Shown here: piece after piece, positions 56-63,965 of the stretch
Layout of the letters: each line of letters starts with the position of its first letter
Numbering within the stretch: the first letter of the stretch is position 1
Source of the DNA: Scenedesmus sp. ARA3
Taxonomy: Eukaryota; Chlorophyta; Chlorophyceae; Sphaeropleales; Scenedesmaceae
Reading direction: 5' to 3'
NCBI GenBank assembly: GCA_004335835.1
Contig: RWJK01001695.1
Span: 99,312 to 163,311, forward strand
Length of the DNA stretch: 64,000 nt
Made by a program: the position numbers and the translations under genes
Notes under the pieces: generated by a model
Told to the model about the DNA's origin: nothing
The model's input: the letters and a program-made list of their open reading frames with translations, nothing else
The model's database searches: none

Positions 56-212
56 GGCTGCAGAGTGCAAGCAGTGCTACGGCTACATCGACGCTGCGGG
101 TGACAGCTGCAGCAGCAAGCCCGCAGACAACGCGTGCTGGGGCGCCGCCAAGCTGGGCTACTGCGCAATGAGGCACGCGCTGCTGGACGGATATGGCATG
201 AATGCCACCACG
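1..212 (+). CDS. Partial Cys-rich protein, internal exon (5' end outside window)
   Basis: The frame starts as a polyalanine tract written by the (CTG)n run at 1-55 and continues into a compact Cys-rich segment: AECKQCYGYIDAAGDSC, a CWGAAKLGYCAMRHALL stretch and DGYGMNATT. It ends at a good donor (ACG|GTAAGT, exon end 212). Spacing of the cysteines (C-x2-C, later C and Y-C) suggests a disulphide-rich, perhaps extracellular, module, but I do not recognise the family. The last 45-75 bp of the exon recur twice downstream, each with a donor (see the repeat at 213-478). No following exon could be identified with confidence, so the gene may end outside the part I can read or continue through the featureless region to about 2.9 kb. 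Strand and frame are supported by the donor and by conservation of the frame in the copies; function is unknown. Confidence 0.5.
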
Positions 213-478
213 GTAAGTGTTACACAGCAGCTTGCTGGTCAAGCTGTCAGGTTTTAGCTGTAGCTGCTGGTGTTGCTGCTGATGATGCTGATGATGCCGC
301 ACGCGCTGCTGGACGGATACGGCATGAACGCAACCACGGTGAGTGTTTTTAATGTGCTTCAAAGCAGCTGACAGGTCAGTGGACCAAGGTTTGGCCATAG
401 CTGCTGGTGCCGCCAAGCTGGGCTGCTGCGCGATGAGGCACGCGCTGTTGGACGGATACGGCATGAACGCCACTACAG
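143..478 (+). repeat. Tandem copies of an exon end with donor (3 copies)
   Basis: The end of the Cys-rich exon (about 143-212, GAA..HALLDGYGMNATT then GT) is repeated at about 295-338 and 404-477. Each copy ends with GTGAGT. The copies are nearly identical over the last 45 bp; the third also keeps the upstream KLG-C-C-MRHALL portion. Spacing is about 126-139 bp. The copies lie in what should be the following intron. Confidence 0.8.
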
Positions 479-4507: not shown

Positions 4508-4548
4508 CCATTACATTACATTACATTACATTACATTACATTACATTA
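4508..4548. repeat. (CATTA)n microsatellite, about 8 units
   Basis: Perfect 5-base repeats run across this interval and end next to the dispersed segment at 4566. Read on the minus strand, the dispersed segment is followed by a (TAATG)n tail, as at the 3' end of some LINE/SINE elements. Confidence 0.85.
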
Positions 4549-4565
4549 GATGCTCCACTCAACGA

Positions 4566-5199: not shown

Positions 5200-5830
5200 A
5201 CCTGCAAGCCTTTCTATGCACCCTCTGATCCGTACCAACACACACGACCTTCAGCGCCAGAGCCATCTTCAGTCCTGCTTACATGCTGTGAAAAACTCTC
5301 CCTTAACGACCGTGTACTGCCAGTGGCCTCCTCATCAACACTGCCAGCAGCAAGTTTCTACTGATTACTGCCAGCCTGCAGCCGCAGCCGCCTGCAAGCC
5401 CTCCTATGCACCCTCCAATCCGTACCTTCGCACATGAATTTCGTTTCTATACATGACCCTGTGCTGGTCTCCTCATCGACACTGCCAGTAGTGAGTTTCC
5501 TAGCTGCTGCCAGCCTGCAGCCGCAGCCGCATGCAAGCCTTCCTGTGCACCCTCCGATCCGTACCTTCACACATGAATTCGTTTCTATACATGACCCTGT
5601 ACTGGTCTCCTTATCGACACTGCCAGTAGCAAGTTTCTACTGATTACCGCCAGCCTGCAGCCGCAGCCGCCTGCAAGCCCTCCTATGCGCCCTCCAATCC
5701 GTACCTTCACACATGAAATTCGTTTCTATACATGACCCTGTACTGGTCTCCTCATCGACACTGCCAGTAGTGAGTTTTACTAATTACTGCCAGCCTGCAG
5801 CCGCAGCCGCCTGCAAGCCTTCCTGTGCAC
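5200..5830 (-). repeat. 3'-end tandem array of the MYND gene (about 5 copies)
   Basis: The last roughly 40 coding bases of the MYND gene (WRVHRKACRRLRLQAGSN and stop) plus about 100 bp of 3' flank recur beyond the stop at about 5665-5700, 5525-5560, 5385-5420 and, partly, 5205-5215. The period is about 140 bp. The copies read DWRVHRRACRRLRLQA in the minus strand, so they derive from the coding end and not the reverse. Confidence 0.85.
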
Positions 5831-6033
5831 CCTCCAATGCACCTGCTGGCACTGCAGGCAGCAGTAGCGCGTGCCGCACCCGGCGCACATCTTCACAGCA
5901 GCACCTGCCTCCGAAATGCCCTGCAAGCACTGGCAGCTGGGGTTGTTGCAGACCTCAGGCAGCGGCACTGCTGCTGCCACCACCCTGCAGAAGGACAGCA
6001 CGTCAGACACCACACCCTCCACATGCTGTGAAG

Positions 6034-6070
<37 letters not shown>

Positions 6071-6499: not shown

Positions 6500-6537
<38 letters not shown>

Positions 6538-17700: not shown

Positions 17701-20700
17701 TAGAAGCGCTGCCACGCCAGCACAAATCCGCACACCAGCATCACTGCAGCGGCAGCGCGGCAAAGGACACACAATAACAGCAGAGCAGCTTCAGTTGACG
17801 CTGCGCTTTGATTGGCCTCAATGGCAAATTCCTGGGTTGAGCACGCCAGCACACAGCCACACATCAGCATCACTGCAGCGTCAGCGCCACAAACGCAGGA
17901 CAGCGGCTCAGATGGCGATGCGCCGCTGTTGTGTATACATGTTTGCACGCACGTCCTGCGCAGGGGGCACAGCTGCACAGCAGCTTTGCAGAAGCCAACA
18001 CAGCTGCCCCTCCCCCTGCCTGGCCACTGACAGCCAGCCTCGCCAGCGCGCAATCCCATCATCTACCTTTCAGAAGCCCTGCTGACAGTCAGAGCCCTAA
18101 CCAGCTCGCTGGCTGTTGATTCATATGCATGCATCATGCCACACGGCGTTGCAACAGTGCAGCACACTACCACTGTCCATGCTCGCATCAGCACCTACAC
18201 CAGCGCTGCCGCGACGCATAGAAAAACTTCTGCCGACATCACAAGGTACTCATGTGCGCCCGCGCCGATGACGAAGGGGTTCTTGGTGGCTGCGAAGAAT
18301 TCGGGCGGCAGGATGCCACTGCCACACAACACAGCTGTTACAATAATGACAAATAACGTGACAAACTTACGTGCGCCTGCGCCGACGACGAAGGGGTTCT
18401 TGGTGGCTACGAAGAACTCGGGCGGCAGGATGCCGCTGCCATACAACACAGCCGTTACAATAATGACGAATAATGTGACAAACTCACGTGCGCCTGCGCC
18501 GATGACGAAGGGGTTCTTGGTTGCCGCGAAGAACTCGGGCGGCAGGATGCCGCTGCCGATGAGCATCTCTCGCTCGCGCACGGTGAACTTGTTGGCGGGC
18601 AGCCGCAGCAGCTGGCCCTCTGCAGCAGCAGCAGCAGCAGCAGCAGCAAAGGAGCATGCAGTTAGGCTACATGAACTGCGTTGAAGTGTGGCAGCGGTCG
18701 CAGACATGCACGGTGAACTTGTTGGCGGGCAGCCGCAGCAGCTGGCCCTCTGCAGCAAGAGGCAGCAGAGACGATGATGCAGGGGCTTGAGAGAGTTGCA
18801 CCGCAGACCGTCGCAGGTTGTAAAACACAGCAATCAATGAAGTCGGCAGGTTCCAGTCTTGCTGGTCCTGCTCACCTTTGTGTTTGTCCAGGTTCACTCC
18901 GCCGTTGAGCCCCGCCATCTGCCCACACTACATGCAGTGCATGCAACTTGCGTGCAGCAAACATTTAGACTGTGTATTCAACTGTCCAGTGTTGTTTGCT
19001 GCCCACCTTTGATCTTGTCCAGGTTCACTCCGCTGTTCAGCGCCGCCATCTCAGCGCGGCTGATGTTGCGCTTGCTGGTGATGTCAGCCAGAGACTCGCC
19101 CTTGCGCACCTGTAGCGGCAGCAGCAGGAGCAGCGGCGTAATGCAAGATTGCCAACCAATGGTGATGTCATTGACGGCAGAGCTGCTGCTTGCATTGCAT
19201 CATTGCAGCTTGCGGGTGGGTGGCTGTTGCAAGCAGCAGCAGCTTATCAAACAGGCGGTATGCTTGCACTGGCAGCTGCAGCCAAGCACCGCCGAGGCGG
19301 TGTATAGTGGGGTAAATTGCCGCATGGTATGTCCATCACTTGTCTCCTCCTGCAGTGCATCCATCCATACAGGGGCCGTGCATTGCTGCAGACCACGCAC
19401 CGGATTTGATGCGGTATACTGTGCCGATGACCTCCAGGATCCCAGCCACAGCCAACCACTATAAGCATAAGCTGTGTTCGTACTGACAGCTGCGCGCTGC
19501 TGGCATCCTGATAATTTTTTCATCACAGTCACTACTAGTAGCAGGCACTAAAGGTCTTTGACGGCCACACTGCTGCTTTGCTGCCAAACGGAACTATTGC
19601 ACGCACCGGGTAGATGCGGTAGACAGCGCCGATGCCTTCCAGGATCCCAATCACAGCCAACCACTAGACACATATGCCGCTGCCGTACATGTACTGCATC
19701 TGCACGCTGCTGGTACTCCAATGATGCGGGCCCACTACACCTAGCTGTGCGTGGTCGCTGCACTGCAAACACTGCGCTGTAGTGCTGCAGCAATAAGGTC
19801 GCAGACAAGCTCACCGGGCAGATGCGGTAGACAGCGCCGATGACCTCCAAGATCCCAGCCACAGCCAACCACTGTAAGCATAAGCTGTGCTCGTACTGAC
19901 AGCTGCACGCTGCTGGTATCCAGAAAATGTTTCATCACAGTCACTACTAGTAGTAGGCACTACAGGTGTTTCATGGCTGCACTGCTGCTTTGCTGCCAAG
20001 CAAGCAACTGCACGCACCGGGTAGATGCGGTACACTGCTCCGATGCCCTCCAAAATCTCCCTGTCTCGTGATGACAGCGTTCCTGCAGGCAGCAGGATGG
20101 TCTGGCCCGCTGCTACTGCATCTGGCTTCACCTCTGGGTTGATGTTGATGACCTGGTCAACGGTGAGGCCTGGTCAAACAAAAATAACACACAGACACAG
20201 CAGCAGTCAGCTTTGATTATGAAATGGCCAACGAGGTGAGGCGGGCAGGGCCGATGGTAAGACATCAACAGTGGCGCATGGAAGTCGCACAAGCGAAGGT
20301 GGAGCAGCGGCTCGCGGGAAGTGCATAGGTGCAAAGCCAGAGCACGGACGCAGAGCAAGCAGAAGTGTAGATGCTGTGACTGTGTTGCTGCTGTGCTCTT
20401 TGTTGGCATGGTGGCTGTGGCGATTGCTGTGCAGTGCTGCTCAGGCATGCAGCATGCTACAGAGGGATGCTAGTGAGGCAGAATATGCTTGCAGCATGGC
20501 AAAGTGAACCAGCGCTGCTTACCTCGCTTTTGTGCAATGCTCTTGAGTGTGTCACCCTTGCGCAGAGTGTATGGCCGCACTGAGACATCGAATTGGTATG
20601 CGCTGGTCACCACTGCTGCTCGCCTGGCACGGGTCTGCTGCTGCGAGTCACAAAAACCAAGCTAGGTGTGAGTTCCATGAATGGACCTGCCTCGGGCCGA

Positions 20701-21571: not shown

Positions 21572-24173
21572 TGCCCAGCAGCAACGTGGGGACAGGTCAG
21601 CAGCAGCCCTGTCCCCTGCATTGCGATTGGTTCGTGTGGCATGCCTTTGATGACTGGTTGCTTGGCTGCTGTCCAGCTGACCTAAACCCAGCACGGTCAT
21701 CTAGCATCGACAACAGCGCGGTTGTGGTGAAATGGCAATGCAGCAGCTAGCATATATCGCGCGGTTTTAAGCTGATGCCTTACAGCTGTGCCAGCGCTTC
21801 ATCTTGAACCTAGCACGCAGTAAACACTTCTGCACAGTGTGAGATGGCAGAAGTGCTGCAGTGCGCGCGCTGTGGGCAAGTGCAGTGACTCGAGTTCGTG
21901 CATACTCCTGCTTGCGCAACACATTGTCTTATAAAATACACTATTAATGTGCAGCAGCACAGCATAGCAAATCACGGCCTGCAGCAAAGGGCATGGTGCA
22001 ACCGAGAGGCACAGAGCATCTGCTGTAATCAGTCGACACCACCGCAGCAGTGGCAGCCCTCCCAGCTGGCATCACTACACAGCTTTACATTCCTCGCCTC
22101 ACACCACTGCTGTGTCCCTTGCACTCCAGATCCAACTACCTGTCTTCACTCTGACCGCGTTTGACCATGTTTGACCGCTGCAGGGGAGCGACAGTGCCTG
22201 CTACCTGCACCGCAGCAGTCAGCCAGTTCCTGCAAGCACAGCAGCCGCCCTTCAGCCCCTTCATAGCCACCACTGTCATGCTGATGGCTGAGTCAGCAAA
22301 AGGCGAGGCATCGCCCTTTGCGCCTTACTTTGCCACACTGCCGGAGGCCTCTGACTGCCTGCTGAACTGGAGTGAGCAGGAGCGGCAGCTGCTGGCAGGT
22401 AAGCCGCCTTTTAAGGGTTCAAGCGGCTTGGGTTTAGGTTTGTAGGGTTTTGGAGCAGTGGGTTTTTGGGTGGAAAGCAATTCATCTTTGGCAGCTGCCA
22501 GGCAGCAGCAGTTTGCAGAGCTGCAGGCGTAGCACCCAAACAGGTGCAGTAAGCCTCCTGTCTGAGTTTCACATAGCACATGCGCTGTATTCAACATAGC
22601 AGTGCCAGCATTGCAGGCAGTAGGACACTGCTGCATGTTTCCAAACCTCCAAGAAAAAAATGCAATTTTTCACATCTTTCTCTTCTGCTGCTTGGCGACC
22701 GCCGTTTTCCTGCAAGCAGGTACCAGCCTGGAGAGCAGCGGGCGCAGCATCCAGGACATATACGAAGCAGACATTGCCCCCAAGCTAGCGGCAGCGCCGC
22801 AGGGCATGTTTCCTGTAGGCTCGATTAGCTTTGAGGCCTTCAGGCGTGCAGCAGACATGGTGCAGACACGTGCCTTTCATATGAAGGCCGACAACTGGCT
22901 CACGGGCGCCAGCCAGGTGGGGTGCAGAGGTTGTTACTTTTTTTGTGTTGTACGTGGGTTTGAATGCGGTGTCTGTGTGTGAGTGCAGGTGGGAGCAGGT
23001 GCGGCGCTTTGTGCCACATGGCTTCACTCTGCCGAAGATATGATCAGAAGTTAAAATTTTGTATTGCTCGATGTTCAATCCTGCTGCCAATTCTCTCATG
23101 CTAGCGAGATGCACATAGTTTTGCAAAAAGTCGTGAGCAAGCTGTATCTCATGTCAGGAGAAGCAGATGGCGCTTGAGCATGTCTTGCTGCTGCTGCTGC
23201 TGCTGTGAATCGTATGTTTGCAGGAAGCCACGGACGAGCTGTACCTCATCCCCGCCATTGACATGCTCAACCACAGCAGCAGGCCGCAGCTGCGCAACAC
23301 CAGCCTGGCGCTGATGCGCAGCGAGGCAGAGGTGACGCTGGGGGACGGCAGCAAGCGATGCTTCAAGGACTTCTTCTCCATGAAGGCTGGTGAGTTTGTG
23401 TAGTGCCCGGCGTGTGTTGCGTGCTGGTCAAACGTTGGTCAAACTTTGGTCAAAGATCGGTAGAAATTGAGTTCGGGTTTGCAGGACCCTGTGTGTATGC
23501 TGATCATGTGACAGCGCTTTAAGGACTTCTTCCCATTGAAGGGTGGTGGGTGTCTGTGTTGTTTGCTTGTGTTTTGCGCTGGTCAATTGCTGGTCAAACT
23601 TTGGGCAAGGATTGACCAACCAGAGCTGAAGTCTGCAGCACTGTATGCGCATGTTGCTCACGTGACATCGCTTCAAGGACCTCTTCTCCATGAAGGCTGG
23701 TGCGTGGTTGCGGGGCTTGGCTTATGTTGTGTTCTGGTCAAACATTGGTCAACATCTGGTCAAACATTGACCAAACTAGAGATTTGGCCCTCAGACCATG
23801 CTCTGCACATGACGTCAGGTCAATGATAACACTGATGATACTGACGACACTGATAACACCAGTTATCTGCTTGTCAGTGCCCTGCAGAGCGCGACATCCC
23901 AGCAAGCTCTCAGGCGCTGCACTCCTACGGTGACCTGCTAGATGCGCAAGTCAACATGGTCACTGCTGATTGCTGTGTGCCTCTGTCTCTATCTTTTTAT
24001 GCTGTTTCCTGCAGAGCGTGACATCCCAGCCGGCACCCAGGTGCTGCATACCTATGGTGACCTGTCAGATGCTCAGCTGCTGCAGACCTACGGCTTCATA
24101 GACGCGCCTCCTGCTCTGCCAGGGGCGGCAGCAGCAGCAGCAGGAAAGGGCTCGAAAGCAGCCAAGTCAAAGT

Positions 24174-24210
<37 letters not shown>

Positions 24211-25121
24211 GGCGGCAGGCAACCCGCATAACTATGTGGTGCTGCCGCTGGCCATGCTGCTTGATGCTGCCAGCAAGGTGGCTGCTGCCACGCACCTATG
24301 GCCGGCTAAAAAGGCAAAGAGGGTGAGACAGAATTTGGTTCTCCATGAAGCGCAGGGTGCAGGGTGCCTTGCAAACTGCCGAACTATCAGCAACTTGCAT
24401 GAGTTGCAGGCGCTGTATCATAGTTATGCCTGTGCTTAAACTGCTTGATGCTGCCAGCAAGGTGGCTGCTGCAACTCACCTCTGGCCAGCTAAGAAAGCA
24501 AAGAAGGTGAGACAGAACTTAGTTTGTCGCCAGGTGCAGGGTAGGGGTGACGTGCGTTTGCCTGGTTCCAGTGTGTGTGACCAGCATGAAGCAATGCGCA
24601 TGCTGTGGTGTTGAGCCTGAGCGCCAGTTGCTGTGCTGCCTTCGTGCGTTACTGCTCGCAGCTGTTGGCCTGCCTGCGGGGGCTTCTGTTACCGTCAAGT
24701 TGCCACACAAATTTCTATATCCGAAACCACCTTGTGCTGTTGTTCTGCTGCCGCTTTGGCTGCCTGCTGTTGCTGCTGCTGCCGCTCTTGCTGCTGCTGC
24801 TGCTGCTGCTGCTGCAGCTGCTGGCGGCCAAGCTGTCCCTGCTGGCATCATCGGGTCTGCTGCAGCAGCAGCAGCCGCAGGAGAGTCAGCTGTTGATCAC
24901 AGCTGCAGCCCCACTGCCTGATGAGCTGCTCACAATCGTACAGGTGCGGGAGGCATAAATGATGAAGGGGTTTTGTCTGCCTTTTGCAGCTGTTTGGCGG
25001 AAGTTTGCAGCTTGTTGTGTCTGCTGAGTGAACCTGGCTTCATCTGCCACCACACGTACGATGGGATCATACAGCAACGCACTGATGACGATCTTGCAAG
25101 TAGCATGTGCCTTGCCGTGTA

Positions 25122-26582: not shown

Positions 26583-27981
26583 GCACAGAAGCAGGGAAGC
26601 ACCACAAACACAGCAGCCACAGCAAGCACAAGCACGAACTCAAGCACAAGCACGGTGACAAAAAGAAGGCTGCAGGGGCTGCAGAGAAGAAAAAGAAGAA
26701 AGACAGCAGGCCGCATTATGGAGCAATGACTGGCCCCTCTGAGGAGGATGTGTGGCAGAGTGACGACAGCGAGAACGTGGTGCGTGGAATGCATGCGCTA
26801 GTTGTTATAACTGTTACTAACATGTCAGTGATCATCCATGACTCTCTGCTCACATCAACATCAAGTTAGTTGCTACTGTTGTCCATTGGAAGCAGAGGAG
26901 CTTGCTGTCTGTGGCTGCAGATAAGCATGTTAATATGGACAGTCTAGCATGAAAATGCAAAGCTGCGCACCTTCAAGCATTGCTTGGCCATGTGCTGCTA
27001 CGCCACCGGCAGTCACTTAGTTGTGAGGGTCGTGAGGGCGACTGGTATCTGCCAACAGGCTCTCTTTTGTTGAGCGCCATTGCCATGCCTCTGCATGTAT
27101 GCTGCGCAGGTCGGCTATTCAGAGTCAGAGGACGAGCCAGCCTCCGATGCACCGGCAGCAGCAGCAGCAGCGGCAGCAGCAGCAGCAGGCAAGAAGCGCG
27201 GCAGCAGCAGCAGCAGCGGCAAGCGGCAGCGCCACCCTGCGGATGCGAGTGGGAAGCACACTTATGAGGTCGGAGCTGCAGGGGCGGTGCGGGAGGTGCA
27301 CGGCCACATGCTGGGACCTGACGAAGCAGATCTGATCGAGTCGGATGACAGCGATAAGGTGAGGTTTTTATGTTGGAGGTTTTGTGCGATGGTTCGTGAT
27401 GCAGGGTTTTGGGTGTGCAGGTAGCACAGTGCCAGTTGAGAAGTGCATGGCCACATGCTGGGACCTGATGAGGCGGATCTGAATGAGTCGGATGACAGAG
27501 ACAAGGTCAGGGAGGGTTTTGCGTGTCGGCCTGCAGGGCAGGGTTTTGCGTGTCCGGGTAAACCCTGTTCTGGCGTCAGGTGCATGGCCACATTCTTGGC
27601 CTTGATGAAGCAGATCTGATTGAATTGGACGACAGCGTCAATGATTTGAACTCGAAGCTGACTAAGTTGCATGCTATTGTGTTACATGGCTGACTATGGT
27701 GCATGCTGCAGTGTTACGTGATGGCATTTAACAGCCAGCAAACCTCTCTGACCATCAATGTCACTTGTTGCAATTGCCGTTGATGCTGCAATCACCTTCA
27801 GGTGGGCTATGTTGATGAAGAGGAGCAGCCTGCAGCAGCAGCAGCAGCAGATGGCGGCAGCAAAGCAGCAGGCAGCGGCGGCCGAGGCAAGCGCAGCAGC
27901 AGGGGCGGCGCAGCAGCAGCAGCAGCAGCAGCAGCAGGTGGCAGCAAGCGACCTAAGAAGGGCCTTGGGTTTAAGGGCTAG
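21228..27981 (+). CDS. SET-domain lysine methyltransferase (SETD6 / Rubisco LSMT-like) with long acidic-basic tail
   Basis: Twelve exons fit exactly: 21228-21418, 22184-22398, 22720-22916, 23224-23389, 24015-24322, 24818-24943, 25202-25378, 25722-25898, 26068-26173, 26496-26779, 27110-27358, 27802-27981 (791 residues). The N-terminus has the split-SET start (GDRGVYAEQDIAEGEQLLLVP). Exon 4 has the cofactor motif DMLNHSS (about 214-220). Exon 5 has GTQVLHTYGDLSDAQLLQTYGF (about 262-284), matching the SET YG-LS--LL--YGF signature. Residues about 360-520 correspond to the substrate-binding region of this family. Such enzymes transfer methyl groups from S-adenosylmethionine to lysines of nuclear or plastid proteins. 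Residues about 520-791 are unusual: an Asp/Glu run, a Lys/His-rich stretch (KKAKAGKQHSSKQHHK), SDDSEN/ESDDSDK motifs and an NLS-like end (KRPKKGLGFKG). This suggests a nuclear site. No transit peptide is obvious. Confidence 0.9.
23361..23710 (+). repeat. SET exon 4 end repeated three times
   Basis: The segment encoding CFKDFFSMKAG and the donor at 23389 recurs at about 23513-23552 and 23668-23702. Each is followed by an intron-type stretch with repeated TGGTCAAAC motifs. Period is about 150-157 bp. Confidence 0.85.
23875..24085 (+). repeat. SET exon 5 start repeated
   Basis: A diverged copy of the acceptor and first 65 bp of exon 5 lies at about 23881-23948, before the real exon at 24015. 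It contains an in-frame TAG (DLL-stop), so it cannot replace the exon. Confidence 0.8.
24255..24525 (+). repeat. SET exon 5 end repeated
   Basis: The coding end LLDAASKVAAATHLWPAKKAK plus its GTGAGACAGAA donor occurs at 24255-24335 and again at about 24440-24520, with a period of about 184 bp. Confidence 0.88.
25335..25525 (+). repeat. SET exon 7 end repeated
   Basis: The sequence encoding FGELVATVLLQ and its donor (25345-25385) recurs at about 25483-25520 (FGELVVTVLLQ, GTGAAT). Confidence 0.85.
27285..27640 (+). repeat. SET exon 11 end repeated three times
   Basis: The end of exon 11 (VHGHMLGPDEADLIESDDSDK) recurs at about 27440-27506 and 27571-27635. The copies carry substitutions and the third has lost the donor consensus. 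Period is about 135-147 bp. Confidence 0.85.
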
Positions 27982-40939: not shown

Positions 40940-42549
40940 CTACTGCGTGCACCCGCATGCATCGCTACCTGCCTCTGCTGCTGCTGCTGCCGCTGCTGCT
41001 GCTGCAGCACTCGCAGCATAGCAGCCGTACCCCACCTGCTGCTGCTGCTGCTGTGCCGGCTGAGCGGGCACGAGCTGCTGCTGCTCTGCTGCCAGCTGCT
41101 GCTGCTGCTGTGCAGCAACTGCAGTTTCCAGCTCCTGCAGCTTGCTATGCACCTCAATAAACGTAGGCCGATCTACTGGCTTGGTGGCCAAGCAAGAAGC
41201 CACCAGCTCTAGCAGACCGGGCGGCAGGTGCGGCGCCTGCTGCGGCAGCATCTGCAGTAGCTTGCCGCTAGTAATGCTGGATACGATTTGAGCATAATGC
41301 ATGCCTTGGTAGGGCTTGCTGCCGCTCAGCAGCTCAAAAAGCACGACGCCAAAGGAGTACACATCTGCTGCCTTGCTGTGTGTGGCTTCTGTGATGACCT
41401 CGGGTGCCATGTGCGTGATGGTGCCGTGCGTGCGCGTGATGATCTTCTCGTTCTCTGCAGTGCATGAAAAGCGGCGTGAACAGCAGTGTGAGCAGCCGTG
41501 GAAACAGCAATGAGAAGTTCTGCGCCATGACGCCAACACTGCACCCTGCACATGCTGGAACACAAACTTGCAGCGCAGACGCAGCGGCGCCACGAGATGA
41601 CGCAGACAGGTACAAACAACCTGACCACCAAGCTGAGCATCTGCACAAACTGCGTAACATCACACAGCACAGCACAGCTGTACCCACCTGGCGTGATGAT
41701 CCTGCTCAGGCCAAAGTCCGCCACCTTGGCAGTAAAACCCCGTCGGTCCACGCCGTCCGGCGCCAGCGCCGCGCCCGCCAGCAGGATGTTATTCCCGTTC
41801 AAATCGCCGTGTAACACGCTCTGGCTGTGCAGATACTCCATAGCTCTCGCAACCTCGCGCGCTGTGGCTAAGGCCCGAAGCAAATCCAGCTGCCCCGGCT
41901 GTGGCGCGCCATCGCGCACGGATAGCAGCCAGCCGCGCTGGATTGCGTCGGAGAGCGTGCCTCTGTTGCAGAACTCGAGCACCATCCACACCTCCTGCAG
42001 GGGCCGGCCGTCCTCGCACACGTCCACCTCCTGCGGGGCATAACATCAGCCAATGACACGAAACAGACAGTCGGATAGGGTTAGAAGACAGCAGACAGCA
42101 TCCATCCACACCTCCTGCAGCGGGCGGCTGTCCTCGCACACGTCCACTTCCTGAAAACACACGAAATGATGGCAAGCAAACTCGGAAAATGGCGGTTTTG
42201 GAACGGAAAACATGCAGGTTGAAATTTAAAGCTGAACCAGCCCAACCGCAAGGTGCAAATCCATTCTGGACTACGGCTGTATCAACGATAGCAGACACAA
42301 CCCCACCGTTGGAAAGCCCTCGGCACTGGCAACACTGTGCTGTACAGTGCTGAGAAAGCACTGCGAACTGAGCAACTTCAATGCTGCAAGCACAGACAGC
42401 GCACCTGCGTGCACACGTCGAACATGGCCACGATGTTTGGGTGGCTCAGCCGGTGGTGCAGCAGCGGCTCCAGGCTGGTGCGAGGGTTGAAATCCCCGGC
42501 AACCTGCTCCAGCACTTTCACAGCCACAAGGCTGCCATTCCAGTAGCCT

Positions 42550-42581: not shown

Positions 42582-42683
42582 GTCAGGTAAGGTGGCAAAT
42601 GCTGCAGGCTAGTGCGCGGGTTGACGTCCCCGGCAACCTGCTCTAGGACCTTGACAGCAACCAGGCTGCCGTTCCAGTAGCCT

Positions 42684-42727: not shown

Positions 42728-45700
42728 GTCAGAGGAGGTAGCATGTGCTTCAGGCTGGTGCACGGATTGAAGTCCCCAGCCACCTGCTCCAGGACCTTCA
42801 CTGCCACAAGGCTGCCATTCCAGTAGCCTGCAGCAGCAGCAGCAGCAGCAGTGATGAAGTACACTGAGCGCGGCAACCCCAAGCCACCCTGGAAACCTGA
42901 ACTGAGACAGTGCCGACACGCGGTTGTGGCACGCATACAGACCCAGCGAGGCAACCCACTGCCTTGTCTGCTTGTCCACCGTGAACATCCAACTGATCGC
43001 GCAGCCGGCCCAGCACCCCTCACTCCCTCAGAGCGCGAAGCAACAAGTGCATATGGCCAAAACAGCAGCTCAGCAGCGCAACACAATGTGCTGACATTTA
43101 TGAATCCAGGACGGCTGTAGACAATTGCTAATGAGCAGCCAAAGCTCACCCCGGTGCACGCGCCCGTACGAGCCCCAGCCCAGCAAGCTGCCGATGGTAA
43201 TATCCTGGAAGGGATTGTCCTCCGGCATCAGCGAAAAGGTGGTCTTCATGCCGCCCATCTGCTGCTGCTGCATCGATGACGAGTCACTGCCAGGGCCAGT
43301 AGCAGTGTGAGGCCCGCTCGAATGCGTGCTGGGTGCTGCACTGTCGCTGGCATGCACACTGCCAGCCCATGCATTATCAGTGCCTCCAAACACCCCTCCA
43401 GGCCCGCCAGTGAAGTACAGATTTGAGCCGCTGATGAAGCTGCTGCCTGCTTCATCACCACCGTGCGTGCTGGCGGCTGAAGGGATGTCGACAGTCGCCC
43501 AGTAAAAGTTGCTGCGGGTGTCTTGGCTGAGCAGCGCAGACGGGATCGAGACAGCGGGCGTCATGTGGGATGCCGCACTTGATATGCTGTGGAACTGGAA
43601 GCGCACATACCGCATGCTGCCGCCAATGCTGCGCCGCCGGCTCGCCTCGTGCCCCGAAAACCCAGACACAAAGCCAATCGCCTTGCCGCCGGCTGCTGAC
43701 GGCGTGCCTGCGCCGGCTCCGGCTGCCACCGCAGTACTGCTGCCGCCGCTGCCGCCGCTCGCATCCTGCTGCTGCTGCTGCTGAATGTTTTGGCTATGAC
43801 ACCCGCCTGAAAAGCTGTTCACACCTGGCAATGAACCCGACCAGGTGGACTGCACAGGCTGCGGCTGCAGCAGCGCCCCGCTATGGTTGAGCCCATTGCC
43901 GCCCGCCACGCTGCCTGCTGTGCTGCTGGCCTGCTGAATCAGCAGGGGCTCGAGCTGCGGGTTGGTGCGCCCGATGCTGCTGCCGCCTGCGCCGCCGCCG
44001 ACGTTGCAAGGGATGCGCAGCTCAAAGTTGCGCCGCTGCTCTACTGCCAATCGGTAGGCTTGCACCTGCAGCAGCAGACGGCCAAGCACAAATAGCAGCA
44101 AAGTGAGACACACGGCACATGAGCCGTCTACGTTGCGATTTATCATGTGGTGTTTACACCATGTCAGGCGCACCTGCGTGACTGACAATGTACTGTTCGG
44201 CATAGCGCTTATATGTGCTCAAGAGTCCAAGGGTGGCCAATCATCTCCTCTGCTATCACATCTGTCTCACAAAGAGGAACAAACGCACAATGCGCGCCAC
44301 CAGTGATCAGATCTTGCCACAGGGAAGTATCAAGCAAGCAAAGCGCACCTGTGCCGGAGCTGGTGGCTCAAACAGGTCCCAAAAGTGCCCTCCAGCCGCC
44401 ATCTCATGGCTGATGCCTGTGGTTCTGTGCCATGCCTCGTTGACGAGGTAGATGGCCCACTTGGCTGTGGCCATGTCACACAGCATGAGCCCCTGGCGGT
44501 CATGCGTGATGCTGTCACCACTGTGCACACATGGCAGCAGCAGCAGCAGGGGCAGCACCAGCAGCAGCAGCAAAGGAGTTGAGGGATGCAGTTGAGCAAT
44601 GCCGATCCGCATAACACAGGCACACACACCAGCACGCAGCTCAAAGCAACCACAGCATGTGCGCTCACCTTTCATGCCTCACGGCGGTGTTGCACAGCAC
44701 GTCGTTCATGGCGCGCTTGCGCTCCACCTCGCGCATGACCATGCTGGCCAGCTGCGCCAGCAGTGTGCAGCTGTCGCTGCTGAAATCACGCGGCTTCACA
44801 TCCAGGATGCACCTGCAGCAGCAGCAGCAGCAGCAGCAGCAGTGAGTTGATAGCAGCAGTGTGCAGCTGTCGCTGCTGAAGTCGCGTGGCTTCACGTCCA
44901 GGATGCACCTGCAGCAGCAGCAGCAGCAGCAGTGAGTTGATAGCAGCAGCGCGCAGCTGTCGCTGCTGAAGTCGTGCGGCTTAACATCCAGGATGCACCT
45001 GTAGTGGGACAAGCAGCAGCAGCAATAGTGAGGAGGGCAGGAGGGGGGTATCAATGTACAGCGTGCAGCTGCAGCAGCAGCAGCAGCAGCAGCAGCGCCA
45101 GCAGGAGCAGAACCATAGATTTAAGCAGAGTGTTTTGATCCATCACGGCGACCTACTTACAACGCCACATGCGTACCTCGCCACAGCGCAGCACCAAGCA
45201 CAAATCTGCATGAGACAGCCTGCACCAAGAAGTACTCGCAGCGTGACAAGGCGCGCGTTGTCGCAGTCGACCAGCGGCACAACCGCGTAGAAGCACCCAC
45301 TGCAAATCCAGCGTACACCAAAATTGCCTGCCGTAGCACTACGCAACGCAACGACAGCGCACTACTCACAATGTGCCCAGGCGCACGTTGTCGCTGTTGA
45401 CCAGCGGCACAGCAGCGTAGAAGCGCGCGTGTGGCCAGCCCACCACCAAACACGCCAGCCATGTCACTGCATGTCACTTTACTCTGTCTGTACTCACAGC
45501 GTGCCCAGGCGCACGTTGTCGCTGTTGACCAGCGGCACAGCTGCATACACGCAGCCACGCCACACCCAACGCAGACTCAGAACCCTTGCCTCAGCACTGC
45601 AACACAAACTGCTGCACACTACTCACAGTGTGCCCAGGCGCACGTTGTCGCTGTTGACCAGCGGCACGGCAGCGTAGAAGCGCGCGTGTGGCCAGCCCAC

Positions 45701-48145
45701 CACCACTGGGAAGTCCTTGAAGCGGATGTCCTCACGCAGGTCCGGCACCACCAGCGCTTCAGGGAAGCGGCTCAGCAGCGTCCTGCAGCAAAGCGATACA
45801 AAAGACATGATTTCAGAAATGACAACAATGAAAACACCTTGAACCGCGTGTCTTCCCGCAGGTCTGGCACCACCAGCGCTTCAGGGAAGCAACTCAGCAG
45901 CGTCCTGCAAGCAGGCGTTGTATCACAAAATGACAGTTGTGAAATGATGAAAGTCATGCTGCACCCTGCTGTGCCCGCACAGTGCATGAATGCGGTTGCA
46001 GCTGCCGCAGCGAACGCCCGCCATCCATGTGCAACAGAGTTCAGCTTTCGCCACGACCTCCCATGCCTGCTGCTGGTACAGCTGCTGCTGGTTGGTTGAC
46101 AGGGCTGCTGCTCTGGCTGCGCCGAGTGCCCTGCCAAGCAGCAGCTGCAGCAGCTGCGTGCCTCGGCAGATAACAGCCGTCGCAGAGCCTCCCGCTGCTG
46201 CTGCCGCCCCTAGCCCCGCTGCTGCTGCCCCCATGCCCGTTGCTGCTGTTGCCGCAGAGCCTTACACTGCTGCTGCTGCAGCTGTTGCTGCTGCTCACCA
46301 TGCGCACAGCGGCTGGCGCCGCTCCACCTGCTTGAGCCCCGGCAGGCCCTGCTGCCAACCCCACCCCTGCTGCTGCTGTGCTGTCACAGAGCCTCACGCT
46401 GCTGCTGCTGCTGCTGCTCACCATGCGCACAGCGACTGGCGCCGCTCCACCTGCTTGAGCCCTGGCAGGCCCTGCACGCTCTTGAGCCACACTCGGTCCT
46501 TGTCCACAAACGTGACCATTGCGATGGGCACCTGCAGCAGCAGCAGCAGCAGCAGCAGTGGTGGCGGAAGATGAGACCTGATGAAGCAGTGTTGGCTGCT
46601 GGGCAATGTACCACACACTACTGCCAGTGCTGCAACAAATCTTGCTGAAGCATGGTGCAGGTTCCAGCTGCCCGTGACGCTCACGCAAGAGTAAGCTCAC
46701 GCAAGAGTCAGTTAACTGCCAGATGCTGCTGGGCTGCTGCAGCCATGGCACCTTGCACCATGCAGCCTGCTGGGGTGCATGCAAACTTGCTTTGCTTTGT
46801 CAAGTGCCTGCATGCTGCGTTCCCAGTTGCTCTGCTGTAAGCTGAATGTCCTGTGTCCAGCAACCCAGCTTGCAATAGCAAGAGCAGCAGCGTCCAGCGA
46901 CGTGGCATGCACTGTGTTCCTGCAAGTGCCGTGCTGCACATCATGCACGCTGCTTGCCAGGCTTTCGCAAGATTGATGCACATCATGTGCGCTGTTGCAT
47001 CTGCATGCCTTTGCGCAGCAGCAGTGCTGTTACAGGAAGAGCCAAGCTTCCTGCAAGTGTTTGCGGCATGCTTGGCAGGTATATCTGCAAGCTGCTGCTG
47101 TGTTTGCAACATGCAAGCAGCCTGATGTTTGCTTTGTGCTGGTGCCTGCTGTTCCTCTGCAAGCTGCCTCTGCTGTTGTTCCTGCAAGCTGCCTCTGCTG
47201 CTGTTCCTGCAAGCTGGCAGCAGCTGACCTTGAACAAGCGCTTGCACAGCTCTGTGATCCTGTCATAGGCCTCCTCAGGCTCCTGCAAGCGATGCACCAC
47301 ACAAACACAGCATACATAAGTGACAGCACAGCTCAACCATCCTGCATCTGATTTCCAAATAGCATGCTTGAAGTGTCAACCACCAGTAACTTTGTGTGGT
47401 TGCCAAGGCGCCGTCCAAGGGATGCTCAACCACGTGCATGCACGAAGCCGCAGTTTGGCTGGCATGCAATCAGCCGTTGCGGGAACAAGCCATCTCTGGA
47501 CAGCGCTGTTGCCAGCTCAGTGCATGCCAAGTGCTGCTGCTGCTGCTGCTGCTGCTGGTTGTGGCTATGGCATGCTAGATGTGCTATGCTCCGCTTATAA
47601 GCGCTATGCACCGCTTGTAAGCTATGCACCGCTAAAACTGTTGCTGCTGCTGCTACTGCTGCTGCCGCTGCTGACAGTCTAGTTTCATTGCATCCAGCGC
47701 TGCTGTCTGCAAGGAGCTGCAGGCGCAGACATGTTGGCCTACCGTGTCCAGGATGTTGTATCCCACAAGCTGGTCCCAGCGGTTCTGCTCGTCCGAGGGC
47801 AGAGGAACCTCCACCTCCTTCCACACCACCATGAGAGGTGATGAAGGCTCATCAACGGCAGCAAGGCACTGCTCGACAGGCTGTTCATGTTCTACAGCCT
47901 TGATGGGGGGCTGATCGTGCAGCAGCCACGCGCGACAGCACCCAGGACACCAGGCGTAGTCATGTTAGCGTGACTGAGACTACCGAACGACCTGCAAGGC
48001 TACCGTACATCACACGATCATCACTTACATCTTTTGTTTGAACTCCATTGACCTCCCGAGAGCTGTGTTCCGGTTGAACGTCTTTGGCAGGTGTGTCTGG
48101 TGCCTGCTTGTCTGCTGCTGCTGGGCTACTCTGTATGCAGCCCAT
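40940..48145 (-). CDS. GAF-PAS-like sensor protein kinase (TKL/Raf-like), N-myristoylation motif
   Basis: Eleven exons fit exactly: 48145-48029, 47910-47743, 47282-47229, 46531-46422, 45782-45627, 44812-44669, 44520-44349, 44065-43150, 42547-42405, 42030-41688, 41454-40940 (945 residues). MGCIQSS is a consensus N-myristoylation start with a neighbouring Cys for palmitoylation, so plasma-membrane attachment is likely. A GAF domain spans about 75-235 (PLPSDEQ ... LVGYNILDT, VPIAMVTFVDKDRVWLKS, ALVVPDLREDIRF, RFYAAVPLV, LGTLCILDVKPRDFS). A PAS-like segment follows (about 255-330: GLMLCDMATAKWAIYLVNEA ... GHFWDLFEPP), then a Ser/Gly linker. The kinase domain is about 597-880: glycine loop GWGSYGRV, VAVK lysine (~622), HGDLNGNN catalytic loop (~733), DFG (~764), MAPE, DVYSFGVVLFELLSG, DRPTF. 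The usual loop lysine is Asn (HGDLN), as in some algal TKL kinases. Ligand and target are unknown. The tail is polyGln/polyAla. Confidence 0.92.
42000..42155 (-). repeat. Kinase exon 10 start repeated
   Basis: The start of exon 10 (EVDVCEDGRPLQEVWM) recurs upstream at about 42105-42151 as EVDVCEDSRPLQEVWM after TTTTCAG. The period is about 120 bp. Confidence 0.85.
42480..42835 (-). repeat. Kinase exon 9 start repeated three times
   Basis: The acceptor and about 75 bp of exon 9 (GYWNGSLVAVKVLEQVAGD-NP-TSL) occur at 42547 (functional), about 42682 and about 42830. Each acceptor is preceded by a (CTG)n run. The copied piece carries the ATP-binding lysine. Confidence 0.9.
44770..45005 (-). repeat. 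Kinase exon 6 start repeated three times
   Basis: The start of exon 6 (CILDVKPRDFSSDSCTLL) occurs at 44812, about 44910 and about 45000, 90-98 bp apart. The first two copies have (CTG)n CAG acceptors. Confidence 0.9.
45240..45665 (-). repeat. Kinase exon 5 end repeated four times
   Basis: The end of exon 5 (AAVPLVNSDNVRLGTL plus GTGAGT) recurs at about 45501-45540, 45373-45410 and 45241-45285. Spacing is about 128-130 bp. Confidence 0.88.
45840..45905 (-). repeat. Kinase exon 5 start repeated
   Basis: About 45840-45905 repeats TLLSCFPEALVVPDLREDTRFK with its CTTGCAG acceptor, 122 bp upstream of the functional acceptor at 45782. Confidence 0.87.
46295..46485 (-). repeat. Kinase exon 4 end repeated
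   Basis: The end of exon 4 (GLKQVERRQSLCAW) at 46422-46475 recurs at about 46298-46350 (QVERRQPLCAW, GTGAGC), 125 bp downstream in the gene sense. Confidence 0.87.
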
Positions 48146-59528: not shown

Positions 59529-59573
<45 letters not shown>

Positions 59574-62500
59574 GCGATGCATGATGGGTGACAGCACAGC
59601 AACAGCAAACCTTACCCGGCACCTACTGTTCCTCTCTGTGTGTGCACCCCTTCCTTTTTCCCTGCAACAAACGGCAACAGCAGCACCGGCCAGGTGGCAA
59701 TCCATTTGGTGCTGCTGCCGTACTTGAGCTAACCACACAACACCTGACCTTCCCACCTGCATCTATATGTGCCTTTTTTCCCCTGCAACAGACGGCCGCA
59801 GCAGCACCGGCCAGGTGGCCATTCACTCGGTGCTGCTGCCGTACTCCTACAAAGTGCTGCTGTTCGGGCGCAACCTGCCGAAGAGTGGCCCCAAATCAAC
59901 GCCGGAGCCGGGCGTTGGCGGCAATGTGTCTACGGTGTACGATGTGACGAGCGGGACGTACGTTGTTACGCCGAACTACGAGACGCTGTTCTGCGCAGGC
60001 CATACGGTGAGAGAGGGTCCCAAAATGCAGTGCTCTGCTGTGCTGGTCACACTGTGAGATGCAGTTGTCATGTATGGGCCACAGGTTCAGGTTTGCCAAA
60101 GTAGCATCTTCTTGAAGTGACTGATCTTGCTGTCATGCTGCTCCTGCCGCCGCTCATGCGTTTACTGTGCCGCCTCCATTGCACACAAACACACAACACA
60201 TGCCTGGACACCAGACGATGTCGGATGGCAACGTGGTTGCTGCTGGAGGTGACATGGGTTTTGGCTACGATTGGATGAAGGAGGGGCGCGACGTGGTGCG
60301 CATCTTTTACCCGAGCAGCAACAAGTGGGAGACGCTGCCGGGCGTGAAGCTGTCAGAATACCGCTGGTACCCAACACAGGTGAGCGTGAAGTTTGCTGTG
60401 AACCATGTGTGTGAAGTTTGCCGTGAACTTCCTTTTGTGTTTTGTATCGGGCGACATGACAGCTGTATGAAACAATCTGGCTGCCTGATGACAGGGTGAT
60501 CATCTTGAATCCAGCGGCTTACTGGATGCAGACATATGAGAGTCCTTCTCCCGCTTTGATCTGACGCAACAGCTGGTGATGGACCTTTTGTCTGTCTGCG
60601 CTGCGCTGCCTGCAGGTGAACCTGCCTGACGACAGGGTAATCATTGTGAGCGGCTTCTTGGACGACCCTGCAAGGCAGACCGGCAAGCCGGCGCCCTCCA
60701 TTGATGTGTTTGACTACAAGTCAAAGAGGTGAGCCTACCGTACCTGGTAGTTGATCATGCAATTGCACTCGAAATTTCTGTAGAAGTGATCTGGCAACAT
60801 CTGTAGCATGGTTTGGCCTCAACATGCCGCTGTGTGCCACTGCAGCTCGTATCACAGGGTGCTGCATGTTGTGTGTCAGCCACAGTTCCCTGCAACCCCT
60901 GACTGCTGCTGCATGCTGCTTCAACGTCACCACCACCCATGCCGCATTGCGGTGCGCAAATCTTGCTATGATTTGGCACGCGCTTCTTCACCAACATCAC
61001 CCCTGCCAACACCAACCAGGTTACATTGTTATGTCATTGTGTCACTTTGTCGTTGCAGCATCGTGGTGCGCAAGTCGCGCTATGACCTGGGCAAGAGCTT
61101 TTTCACCAACATCACCCCAGGCTACCAGCTGTACCCCGCGGTCTTCCTCATGAACTGGGTGGACCCAGCCAAGCCAGGTGCGTCTTGTTGAATTGTAACA
61201 CCGATGTAACACTAATGTAACAATTATGTAGCAAACATCACTGCTGGCCACCAGCTGTACCCCGCGGTCTTCTTCATGAACTGTGTGGACCCAGCCAAGC
61301 CAGGTGCGTCACGTGACAACGTAGCAACAGTGTAACAGCTATGTGTCAAACATCGTACATGTATGCAACCAGTCAGTACCCTGCGCTGCTCCATCGTTGT
61401 ATAACATCCCACCACCCCTTAAAAATCAAACTACTGGTTGTTGTTCATGCACAACACTGCCCTGCACTGCCCTGCCGCTGTTCCACCCGTGCGGACGACT
61501 GGTTCCTGTTCATGTACACCTGCAACAACACGCACTCGCTGTCACCCTCAAACATCATTCTATCGTACACCAAAACAACACCCTGCTCTGCTCTGCCCGC
61601 TGCATCACCCACATGCAGACGACTGGTTCCTGTTCATGTACACCTGCCGTACCGGCCAAATCGTGCGTTTCACCAGCGACAACAACTTCATCCCAATGTG
61701 GAACATGCCCGGCCTGCCCATCGACAACATGTGCACGTCTTTCAGCGCCATGGGCAGCGCGGTGATCCTGCCGCTGCGCCCAGCCAAGGGCTACGAGTTC
61801 GAGGTGGCCATCTTTGGCGGAGGCACGCAGGTGGGTGACATGTATGCAGTTGTGTTGATGACAGGTCAATGTAACAAGGAGGCATGCATATGTTACATAT
61901 GATATGTATGCTGTATGCGCCCTGCCAAGGGCTACGAGTTTGAGGTGGCCATCCTTGGCGGAGGCACACAGGTGCGTGTCATGTTGTTACATTGCGGTGT
62001 GTTAGCCTGCCATGCCACTAACAGTCCCGACACAAGGCCCACATCTTCAACATGATGTTTGCAAAAGGTCGGTGATCGTAAGCATTGCCGTGGAGTGCAA
62101 GCGCTGCTGCTGTATGCCCTGTGGGCCAGCCTGACATCCATGGTGCGCTTATTGGACGCATGCTTTTTCCTGTATGCCCTGCGCCTTACTCTGATTGTTC
62201 AAATATTGTTCCTCAACCCCGCAGGGCAAGGGCATGGATTGCAAGGGCGTCTGCAACGCCCCCGCAACCAAGACAATCTTCTGCATGCAGCCATGCATAA
62301 ACCTACCACATGCCCTTAACCCCAAAACCTGAAACTTTTGTCATTTTCTGCATTCCGCCTTGCATTGCAGGGCAAGGGCATGGACTGCAAGGGCGCCTGC
62401 AATGCGCCCGCAGCCAAGACCATCTTCAGCATGCGCCATACCTCAATCCACCACATGCCCTCAACCCCAAAACTTGAAATCTTTGACCTTTTCTGCATTC

Positions 62501-63862
62501 CGCCTTGCAGGGCAAGGGCATGGACTGCAAGGGCGTCTGCAACGCCCCCGCAGCCAAAACCATCTTCCGCATGCGGCTGCCCAAAGCTTCTGAGGCCCTG
62601 AACCTCAAAACCTAAAAATCAAGGTTGAATCCCTGAACCTCAAAACCTAACATTCACCATTCCTGTGTTGTTCTGCAGGGCAAGGGCATGGACTGCAAGG
62701 GCGTGTGCAACGCCCCTGCAGCCAAGACCATCTTCCGCATGCGGCTGCCCAAAGCTTCAGAGGCCCTAAACCTCAAAACCTCAAACTCATCTCTCTGTTT
62801 TTTTGCCATCCTTTGCAGGGCAAGGGCATGCACTGCAAGGGCGTGTGCAATGCCCCCGCAGCCAAGACCATCTTCCGCATGCGGCTTACCTGAACCCACC
62901 ACATGCGCGAAGCTTTAAGACCCAACACTTTTCAACTTTTGAACCTGCAATGCTCTGCAGGGCAAGGGCATGGACTGCAAGGGCGTCTGCAGCGCCCCCG
63001 CAGCCAAGACCATCTTCCGCATGAGGCTGCCCAAAGCTTCTGAGGCCCTGATTCTCAAAACCCAAGAAGCAAGGTTGAATGCCTGAACCTCAACACCTAA
63101 CATTCACCATTTCTGCATTGTTTTGCAGGGCAAGGGCATGGACTGCAAGGGCGTCTGCAACGCCCCCGCAGCCAAGACCATCTTCCGCATGCGCCTGCCC
63201 AAAGCTTCAGAGGCGCTGAAAGGAAACTGGCCCAAGGATTGGGTCTGGAGCGGCAACCAGAAGTACGAGGAGATGCCCTTCCCCCGTGTGTTTGCGGATG
63301 CGGTGCTGCTGCCGAATGGCAAGATTGTGGTGCTTAACGGCGCGCAGCGCGGTGTGCCGGGCGGTGGCATTGATGGCGGCAGCACGGCCAAGGAGGGGGC
63401 GTATACGGCGATTGTGTATGATCCGGAGGCGCCGAGTGGGCAGCGCATCAGCACACTGGCGACCAGCGGCATCCACAGGTGAGCTTTTACTTCTTCTGTG
63501 AACAGCGTTGTTGTTGTTTGCATGTACGAGGGTTGGTAAGCAGCATGCACGCCGCATGCCCCGAGCCGCGGGCAGCGCATGAGCAGACTGGCGACCAGCA
63601 GCATTTACAAGCTAGGCACATTGTTATTGTTGATCAAGCATGTGTGCTGTTATTTATTATGTGCTTGTAGCAGTGCAACAATGGATCACGAGGTACGCCG
63701 CTTGAGCACACCAGCACGTTGCCTGTTGTCCCTGTTACTTACCGCTGTGTGCGCCGCTTGCCCTGCTGCAGGTACTACCACTCCAACGCGCTGCTGCTGC
63801 CCAGCGGAGACATCTGGGTGGCTGGCAGCGAGCAGGCAGACTGCCTGGACAGCTGCGCCTCG
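58678..63862 (+). CDS. Secreted glyoxal/galactose-oxidase-like copper radical oxidase (3' end outside window)
   Basis: Eight exons fit in phase: 58678-58948, 59792-60006, 60215-60379, 60616-60728, 61059-61177, 61619-61830, 63129-63478, 63772-63862 (512 residues so far; the gene runs off the right edge). The N-terminus MLLLLPALAVSTAHFAAA is a signal peptide (an ATG at 58630 would add 16 residues). Kelch-type repeats follow. The active-site residues of the family are present: Cys158 in LFCAGHT (Tyr-Cys crosslink), Tyr214 in RWYPTQ, and Tyr484-His485 in RYYHS, the copper ligands. The family oxidises aldehydes or alcohols with O2 and makes H2O2, usually outside the cell or in the wall. The remaining copper histidine would lie in the missing part. 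Introns 1 and 3-6 all contain partial exon copies, and a copy of the exon 8 end begins beyond its donor. Confidence 0.93.
59655..59870 (+). repeat. Oxidase exon 2 start repeated
   Basis: An upstream copy at about 59660-59728 (NGNSSTGQVAIHLVLLPY then stop) precedes the real exon at 59792 (DGRSSTGQVAIHSVLLPY). The period is about 130 bp. Confidence 0.88.
60945..61320 (+). repeat. Oxidase exon 5 duplicated on both sides
   Basis: An acceptor-side copy lies at about 60945-61010 (RIAVRKSCYDL ... FTNITP). A donor-side copy lies at about 61230-61305 (ITAGHQLYPAVFFMNCVDPAKPG then GTGCGT). The real exon is 61059-61177. Flanks around the donor copies share TGTAACA motifs. Confidence 0.9.
61485..61985 (+). 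repeat. Oxidase exon 6 duplicated on both sides
   Basis: The start of exon 6 (DDWFLFMYTC) is copied at about 61494-61532, and the end (PAKGYEFEVAILGGGTQ then GTGCGT) at about 61918-61975. Confidence 0.9.
62205..63215 (+). repeat. Oxidase exon 7 start repeated seven times
   Basis: The acceptor plus about 85 bp (GKGMDCKGVCNAPAAKTIFR with MRLPKASEAL) starts at 62225, 62371, 62511, 62679, 62819, 62961 and 63129. Spacings are 146, 140, 168, 140, 142 and 168 bp. Only the last runs into GNWPKDWVW and the rest of the exon. All seven keep a TGCAG acceptor. Confidence 0.95.
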
Positions 63863-63965
63863 GTGAGCACACTGGTTTGTTTGCATTTGAAGTTTTGAAC
63901 GTTGTGTGAACCGATTGTATGCGTGCAAAGCAGGCAGACTGCCTGGACAGCTGTGCCTCGTGAGC
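63825..63965 (+). repeat. Oxidase exon 8 end repeated
   Basis: The end of exon 8 (QADCLDSCAS then GTGAGCAC) recurs at about 63930-63965, after which the window ends. Confidence 0.85.

Follow-up and report, generated by a model that had tools for sequence, protein, structure and literature searches.

Minisatellites evolve by unequal exchange, and introner elements are sequences that multiply inside algal introns. In a potato RdRp gene, a tandem duplication over an intron-exon boundary is described as bringing 3' splice signals with it (PMC4974935). The exon arrays of Tetrahymena LRR genes are described as shaped by unequal crossing over (PMC6564038), and short direct repeats of 4-30 bp at intron borders have been attributed to insertion (PMC11782384). 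No description of arrays like those reported below was found among the titles and abstract openings of the open-access papers searched, and the novelty is therefore provisional.

The window analysed is a stretch of 64,000 nucleotides from Scenedesmus sp. ARA3, corresponding to bases 99312-163311 of contig C1295 in an assembly of 87.3 Mb and 1567 contigs. The genes are intron-rich and the GC content is about 0.56. Exon models were built ab initio using a two-strand exon HMM trained on exons from Pfam hits, and the splice consensus it predicted was CAG/GTGAG for donors and TGCAG/G for acceptors (the slash marks the exon boundary). All three features fit an alga. A partial copy of an exon edge inside an intron is termed here a ghost, and an HMM exon that remained after ghost-like exons were set aside is termed real. 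Four loci were left out before counting: L001 and L002 lie within the window, L012 consists mostly of N, and L015 is short. Loci L031 and L033 overlap L030 and L028 and were not used for copies; their 12 exons were subtracted from 367, leaving a total of 355. The strict set contained partial copies only (up to 80% of the exon); this filter cut the 132 arrays by 15, to 117, and the 218 ghosts by 24, to 194.

Many exon edges were found to form the end unit of a tandem array, the unit being an exon piece joined to the adjacent intron piece. The real exon is bounded by the last of the 3' splice sites and the first of the 5' splice sites, and the remaining units are intronic ghosts. The units measured about 90-260 bp with an exon part of roughly 27-130 bp, often in several copies.

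On the forward strand, the real exon 63129..63478 belongs to a gene that is presumably galactose/glyoxal-oxidase-like. It is preceded by six start ghosts (62225-62319, 62371-62464, 62511-62602, 62679-62767, 62819-62886 and 62961-63051; 84-96% identity) and followed by one end ghost (63552-63609); the Pfam scan gave no match for this exon. Further real exons on this strand are 59792..60006 (start ghost 59671-59724), 60616..60728 (start ghost 60481-60526, 76%), 61059..61177 (start ghost 60945-61010, end ghost 61235-61303), 61619..61830 (start ghost 61495-61523, 100%; end ghost 61916-61971, 93%) and 63772..63862 (end ghost 63929-63960, 97%). A short-chain dehydrogenase exon (PF00106, 29784..30014, forward) carries two start ghosts (29635-29724 and 29483-29572) and one end ghost (30076-30133). 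Also on the forward strand, end ghosts follow exons 64..212 (299-338 and 406-476), 23224..23389 (23516-23545 and 23670-23699), 27110..27358 (27440-27505 and 27573-27637) and 30565..30820 (30959-31038, 31137-31234 and 31328-31433), a start ghost precedes 29094..29227 (28956-29018, 92%), and 24015..24322 has one of each (23888-23948 and 24441-24504).

On the reverse strand, start ghosts were located at 42102-42150 for a protein kinase exon (PF07714, 41688..42030) and at 42601-42681 and 42740-42827 for exon 42405..42547. Exon 45627..45782 has one start ghost (45837-45904) and three end ghosts (45240-45294, 45372-45448 and 45498-45552), and exon 46422..46531 has one end ghost (46299-46352, 96%). 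Three end ghosts (19815-19854, 19607-19646 and 19408-19441) accompany exon 20018..20169, which we take to be LysM-like and for which the Pfam scan gave no match. When ten window exons were scanned against Pfam, names were obtained only for two kinase, two SDR and one Arf exon. The reverse-strand array 5324..5838 is a gene-end array, in which a unit of about 140 bp (3.7 copies, 88%) repeats the last codons, the stop and the 3' flank of a gene whose terminal motif is assumed to be MYND-like. Conservation seems to be about the same in its coding part as in its 3' flank (88% across the unit), unlike in the intron arrays. Separately, a nested 75/102/177-bp coding-like array, rich in Ala, occupies 33010-33945 of the window and falls inside ORFs some 600 codons long, which are present on both strands (32852-34645 and 32995-34797).

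The preliminary description had counted more than thirty arrays, and this was confirmed: 33 sets (17 start and 16 end) were recovered in the window, apart from the gene-end array. They comprise 55 copies (30 start, 25 end) at 26 predicted exons, with 1 to 6 ghost copies per edge, and some sets, e.g. 54357-54473, may be repeats of other kinds. Tandem 257-bp units, about 94% alike, were observed at 53796-54473; these may be genuine repeats of the encoded protein and not exon edges. With microsatellites masked, window self-matches were 64 local direct, 3 inverted and 1 distant, and local direct duplicates amounted to 16.7% of the window.

Over all loci read, a nearby copy was found for 178 of 419 predicted exons, ghosts counted in, and at least one edge copy for 101 of 355 exons once ghost-like exons were set aside. 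Among exons of at least 45 bp, edge copies were present at 26/68 in the window and 45/140 in the rest of contig C1295 (71/208 together), at 20/46 in the PF00118 (CCT/Cpn60) loci, and at 10/101 in eight arbitrary stretches of other contigs, four of which (L016, L017, L019 and L023) had none. The statement that nearly every gene carries such copies was thus too broad. Among the matches listed for kinesin-domain exons genome-wide, few partial exon matches overlapped, which suggests, by an insensitive method, that arrays are rare in these genes; genome-wide profile matches were too insensitive for counting ghosts. The arrays are real in this assembly, common in some genes and far from universal in others. 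Introns with ghosts had a median length of 531 bp (n=96) versus 269 bp (n=225) for those without, over all loci.

Tandem duplicates were more frequent at exon boundaries than expected by chance, as had been anticipated: 112 of 270 local matches spanned a boundary, compared with a mean of 82.8 and a maximum of 108 in 200 circular shifts. Matches with at least 20 bp of real exon numbered 194/270 (mean 116.9, maximum 140 in 200 circular shifts). The boundary enrichment is real but modest, about 1.35-fold. Some of it probably reflects how readily copies are detected, since the intronic portion of a unit decays to near-random.

Copies of exon starts had been said always to lie upstream, and copies of exon ends always downstream. 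This was true for 186 of 188 edge-reaching copies in the strict set over all loci (start copies, 97 upstream and 1 downstream; end copies, 89 downstream and 1 upstream), so that the rule stands with two exceptions; 41 further copies end more than 5 nt short of any edge. The polarity is forced by the geometry of a tandem duplication over one boundary, because the rest of the exon joins the downstream copy when a start is duplicated and the upstream copy when an end is duplicated. It therefore tells nothing of selection, and its earlier interpretation as a sign of selection on the reading frame is unnecessary.

The proposed local duplication process was supported by common internal junctions and by flank likeness. 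Interior end points lay within 6 bp of each other in 50% of 111 within-array ghost pairs versus 16% of random pairs, and in 47% of these 111 pairs the sequence past the internal junction was alike above the 95th percentile of shuffles. Flank homology exceeded the same percentile in 93 of 187 real-ghost pairs. In about half of the comparisons, a tandem origin can therefore be seen directly. Dispersed or introner-like elements were rejected, as three DNA queries against the genome gave local matches only, the exceptions being related CCT genes and some short, weak matches to contig C1016. A scan of viral contigs gave one distant match and had no part in the conclusions.

The exon part of a ghost and the rest of its unit had different histories. 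Since copies were detected through exon similarity, exon identity has an ascertainment floor of about 75%, the flanks being unselected, and very diverged exon parts are absent from the copy set by design. With this limit, the median exon identity was.88 in the 134 ghosts with old flanks,.90 in the 39 with middle flanks and.88 in the 14 with young flanks, and the exon part is therefore decoupled from the age of the unit. Ungapped identity was 0.76-0.97 at the 20 exon positions adjoining the boundary. It was also high in the core splice signal and dropped to about 0.4-0.5 within 7-8 bp of the boundary. Gapped flank identity was 72%, compared with 64% for shuffled flanks, and merely 74% even where the exon part was 95-100% identical. 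The copies can be called near-exact at most in their exon part (about 88% identity), and not in the intronic flanks, which have decayed to near random.

Splice signals were retained as well. The splice dinucleotide was kept in 86 of 97 start ghosts (AG) and 77 of 88 end ghosts (GT). Median acceptor scores were 5.66 for ghosts, 6.23 for real exons and 1.01 for background, the corresponding donor scores were 6.20, 6.72 and 0.0, and the pyrimidine content was 0.67 in ghosts, 0.70 in real exons and 0.51 in intron background.

In the strict set, mismatches by codon position were.081/.061/.204 between real exons and ghosts and.109/.077/.220 between ghosts; given the base-class rates of the intron flanks, about 1:1:0.94 would be expected. 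Synonymous changes made up 201 of 437 ghost-private changes (neutral share,.30) and 84 of 115 real-private changes. Stops were found in 8 of 3928 ghost codons, with 22 expected at the position-1/2 rate. The real-ghost third-position ratio was 2.9 overall and 2.5 where one ghost alone was found. By argument, supported by simulation, a neutral ghost beside a real exon that accepts only synonymous changes can reach a ratio of at most about 2. The ratio was strong in contig C1295 (3.2) and CCT-alpha (5.3) and weak in the PF00118 loci L024, L028, L029, L030, L034 and L035 (1.06-1.42); it was also weak in CCT-epsilon (L032, 1.97) and in L018 (0.59). Codon bias is one possible reason for this unevenness. 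Taken together, the observations suggest that ghosts carry selected edges, codon-structured and splice-competent, and this is a newer and stronger result than the polarity.

According to a rival explanation, ordinary tandem duplication by slippage or microhomology repair would be followed by neutral decay, and the exon association would be detectability only. Clear young tandem units (e.g. 946/829 in L030), the modest boundary enrichment and the near-neutral codon ratios at some loci are in line with it. It predicts equal divergence of exon and flank, however, and the exon part remains at about 0.88 beside a near-random flank; the third-position excess above the bound of about 2 and the kept splice sites argue in the same direction, and we consider this explanation decidedly improbable. 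As the whole story, neutral tandem decay was ruled out by the exon/flank mismatch together with the third-position excess. Ghosts might alternatively have a function of their own at the nucleotide level, as splicing enhancers, decoys or recursive splice sites, which would account for the kept splice sites and pyrimidine content. This is very unlikely, as third positions are unconserved (about.2) and positions 1 and 2 are conserved, pointing to selection at the protein level.

A further possibility is that ghosts are extra or alternative exons entering the protein. Indeed, 64 predicted exons overlap ghosts, and one potato gene is described as having gained an extra exon in this way (PMC4974935). 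At the internal junction, no enrichment of second splice sites was detected relative to random intron windows (strong donors, 3.1% vs 6.5%; acceptors, 14.3% vs 15.7%); ghosts are therefore half-exons, and cassette exons were rejected on this ground. Only 9 of 82 indels in the strict set were multiples of three, and 73 were frame-breaking, so the ghosts are not read as protein. With the evidence from CCT-alpha given below, an entry of ghosts into the protein appears extremely unlikely.

The CCT-alpha (contig C1492) and CCT-epsilon (contig C1032) genes have copies at most predicted exons, up to six per edge. Together they contained 48 edge ghosts, not counting four copies that do not reach an edge, and 42 of them kept the splice dinucleotide. 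Their codon-position counts were 64/45/173, in which third-position changes are understated since the CCT-epsilon exon 1531-1630 of the joined locus is misphased. The CCT-alpha real exon at 1507-1668 of L027 matches the solved CCT-alpha up to residue 127, and exon 2610-2780 matches residues 128-183. The intron between these exons holds two end ghosts plus a third, partial copy, followed by three start ghosts (order end, end, end, start, start, start, not interleaved). The exons abut at residues 127/128, and the intervening ghosts are therefore outside the normal CCT protein. One CCT-epsilon exon was likewise confirmed against protein. The intron parts of the CCT-alpha end ghosts (L027, about 1664-2150) hold GGGTTTAGGG-like motifs, which resemble a plant/algal telomere repeat.

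In a TruB-like gene (L007), the end ghost E2 and the real exon have flanks of 98% identity and agree in their last 38 exon bases. Upstream of these 38 bases there are 12 differences, distributed 2, 0 and 10 over the codon positions, and the translation is identical. Ghost E3 is nearly identical to E2, and the outermost, E4, appears to have several variants of the real exon. Judged from the sequence, E2 looks like a mosaic with a crossover inside the exon between two functional versions.

Resemblance of ghosts to the edges of diverged functional alleles is also what would be expected if the scaffolding or gap filling of short reads from a mixed-strain sample had put exon-edge fragments of other strains into introns. 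N runs adjoin CAG/CTG repeats in L012 and L021, and in L007 they lie within a minisatellite; this points to a scaffolded assembly and fits such an artefact. Just upstream of the window (L012, 680-9311), 8.6 kb of N follows a long CAG run and extends up to the initial CTG run of the window; this stretch may be an assembly gap at a triplet repeat. The order of copies in the CCT-alpha intron, the internal junctions common to ghosts and the decay of many ghosts, with indels and lost splice sites, argue against misassembly. Searches of the assembly with two gene regions gave no diverged second allele, as expected for a haploid or collapsed genome; this also speaks against misassembly. An artefact of this type is thus considered improbable.

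The distribution of divergence along the ghosts was also evaluated. If crossovers fall in exonic homology, a ghost can turn real only in its splice-proximal part, and positions 1 and 2 should be most constrained there. From the splice site inward, position-1/2 divergence was.037,.065,.066 and.110 by quarters, third-position divergence was.176,.235,.225 and.201, and the ratio fell from 4.7 to 1.8, with the innermost quarter partly inflated by alignment overrun. Because of this inflation, 20 bases were trimmed at the internal end, after which position-1/2 divergence was.041/.055/.082 by thirds (145 ghosts). In a stricter subset the values were.037/.054/.067, a slope reached in 0 of 1000 orientation permutations (77 arrays). 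The third-position slope in this subset had p=0.2, yet its absolute size was similar (.036 vs.046 for positions 1-2), so that the specificity for positions 1 and 2 rests on the relative change. In the four-gamete test, 58 of 137 site pairs were incompatible, and the rise with distance had p=0.12.

This gradient bears on haplotype capture, in which abortive repair synthesis would run through the intron of another haplotype into the exon edge of that haplotype, followed by end joining and by no later exchange with the real edge. A single step would then account for the codon-structured differences, for the intact splice sites and for the unrelated flanks. The mechanism predicts uniform constraint along the ghost, whereas position-1/2 divergence is graded, and internal junctions within 6 bp in half of the ghost pairs point to local tandem amplification. 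Haplotype capture is therefore regarded as unlikely.

The reading we prefer, at somewhat less than an even chance, is that the arrays are exon-edge tandem arrays in which real and ghost edges exchange by unequal recombination. Arrays would expand and contract by unequal recombination inside exonic homology. On contraction, the splice-proximal part of a ghost would become the new real exon edge; on expansion, the real splice-proximal part would be copied into a new ghost. The splice-proximal part of a ghost would repeatedly meet protein and splicing selection, and the part near the internal junction would stay ghost-only and drift. The exchanging edges would include diverged functional alleles, implying sexual exchange and a very high diversity of alleles, or else gene flow from one lineage to another; this diversity is inferred because a synonymous excess of the observed size needs diverged functional alleles. 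The real exon is, by construction, the innermost 3'/5' splice-site pair, a pattern that suggests exon definition; if this pair wins, as under exon definition, arrays would be tolerated. A more tentative proposal, possible but with the balance clearly against it, is that real and ghost edges swap roles, that ghosts undergo second-hand protein and splicing selection, strongest by the splice site, and that the introns record past functional alleles of a hyperdiverse population.

Forward simulations of unequal exchange were run with amino-acid changes in the real copy lethal; parameters were unfitted and the first runs noisy, so they are a plausibility test and not a fit. Unequal exchange alone gave real-ghost ratios of 1.3-2.1 and, in larger runs, ghost-ghost ratios of 1.2-1.4. 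When allelic exchange in a very diverse population was added (Nu 0.1-0.4), the ratios were 2.3-4.6 and 1.4-2.4, respectively, and with a small Nu of 0.01 they were 1.75 and 1.23. Exchange or gene conversion within one lineage alone was rejected, since by argument and simulation it does not raise the third-position ratio above 2.1. In simulations without conversion, position-1/2 divergence rose inward, as in the data. Simulated third positions also climbed steeply inward, with no clear fall of the ratio, while the data are nearly flat (.18-.23), and this misfit lowers the confidence in the exchange model. The flanks have also diverged further than their linkage to the ghost edge would lead one to expect, which counts against it, as do the weak codon ratios at several loci, the lack of a significant rise of incompatible site pairs with distance, and the fact that no diverged allele, the presumed source, was seen in the assembly for the two gene regions searched. 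Exchange in a diverse population explains more of the facts than its rivals do, though not all.

If true, these arrays would be a simple growth engine for introns, in keeping with the length difference given above, and a natural experiment in spliceosome choice between several near-equal sites. They would also represent codon-level constraint in untranslated DNA and call for caution in gene prediction, considering the predicted exons that fall on ghosts. If the allelic reading holds, population diversity would be readable from one haploid assembly.

In comparison with known systems, the arrays are like minisatellites in their units of about 90-260 bp, variable copy number and common junctions, and differ from them in that one unit per array is a coding edge under selection. 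Unlike introner elements, the copies are local and gene-specific, as judged from three genome-wide DNA queries. They differ from duplicated or mutually exclusive exons, which are complete, with both splice sites and the frame kept: the strict set is partial by choice, and 73/82 indels break the frame. They resemble tandem duplications over exon-intron boundaries, being direct local copies with an exon edge and adjacent intron, as directly shown in about half of the pairs. The potato RdRp gene shares the boundary-crossing tandem duplication that carries 3' splice signals; it is a single case with a new intron and a retained extra exon, whereas here arrays at both types of edge lengthen existing introns and the copies are apparently outside the protein (PMC4974935). 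The direct repeats described at intron borders also lie near splice sites, and those found here are longer, with about 27-130 bp of exon and often several copies (PMC11782384). As in the Tetrahymena LRR arrays, the unit is an exon plus intron, with a copy number that is altered by unequal crossing over there and may be so here; there, whole 90-bp exons form translated repeats, whereas here the copies are partial, apparently untranslated, and also present in conserved genes such as CCT (PMC6564038).
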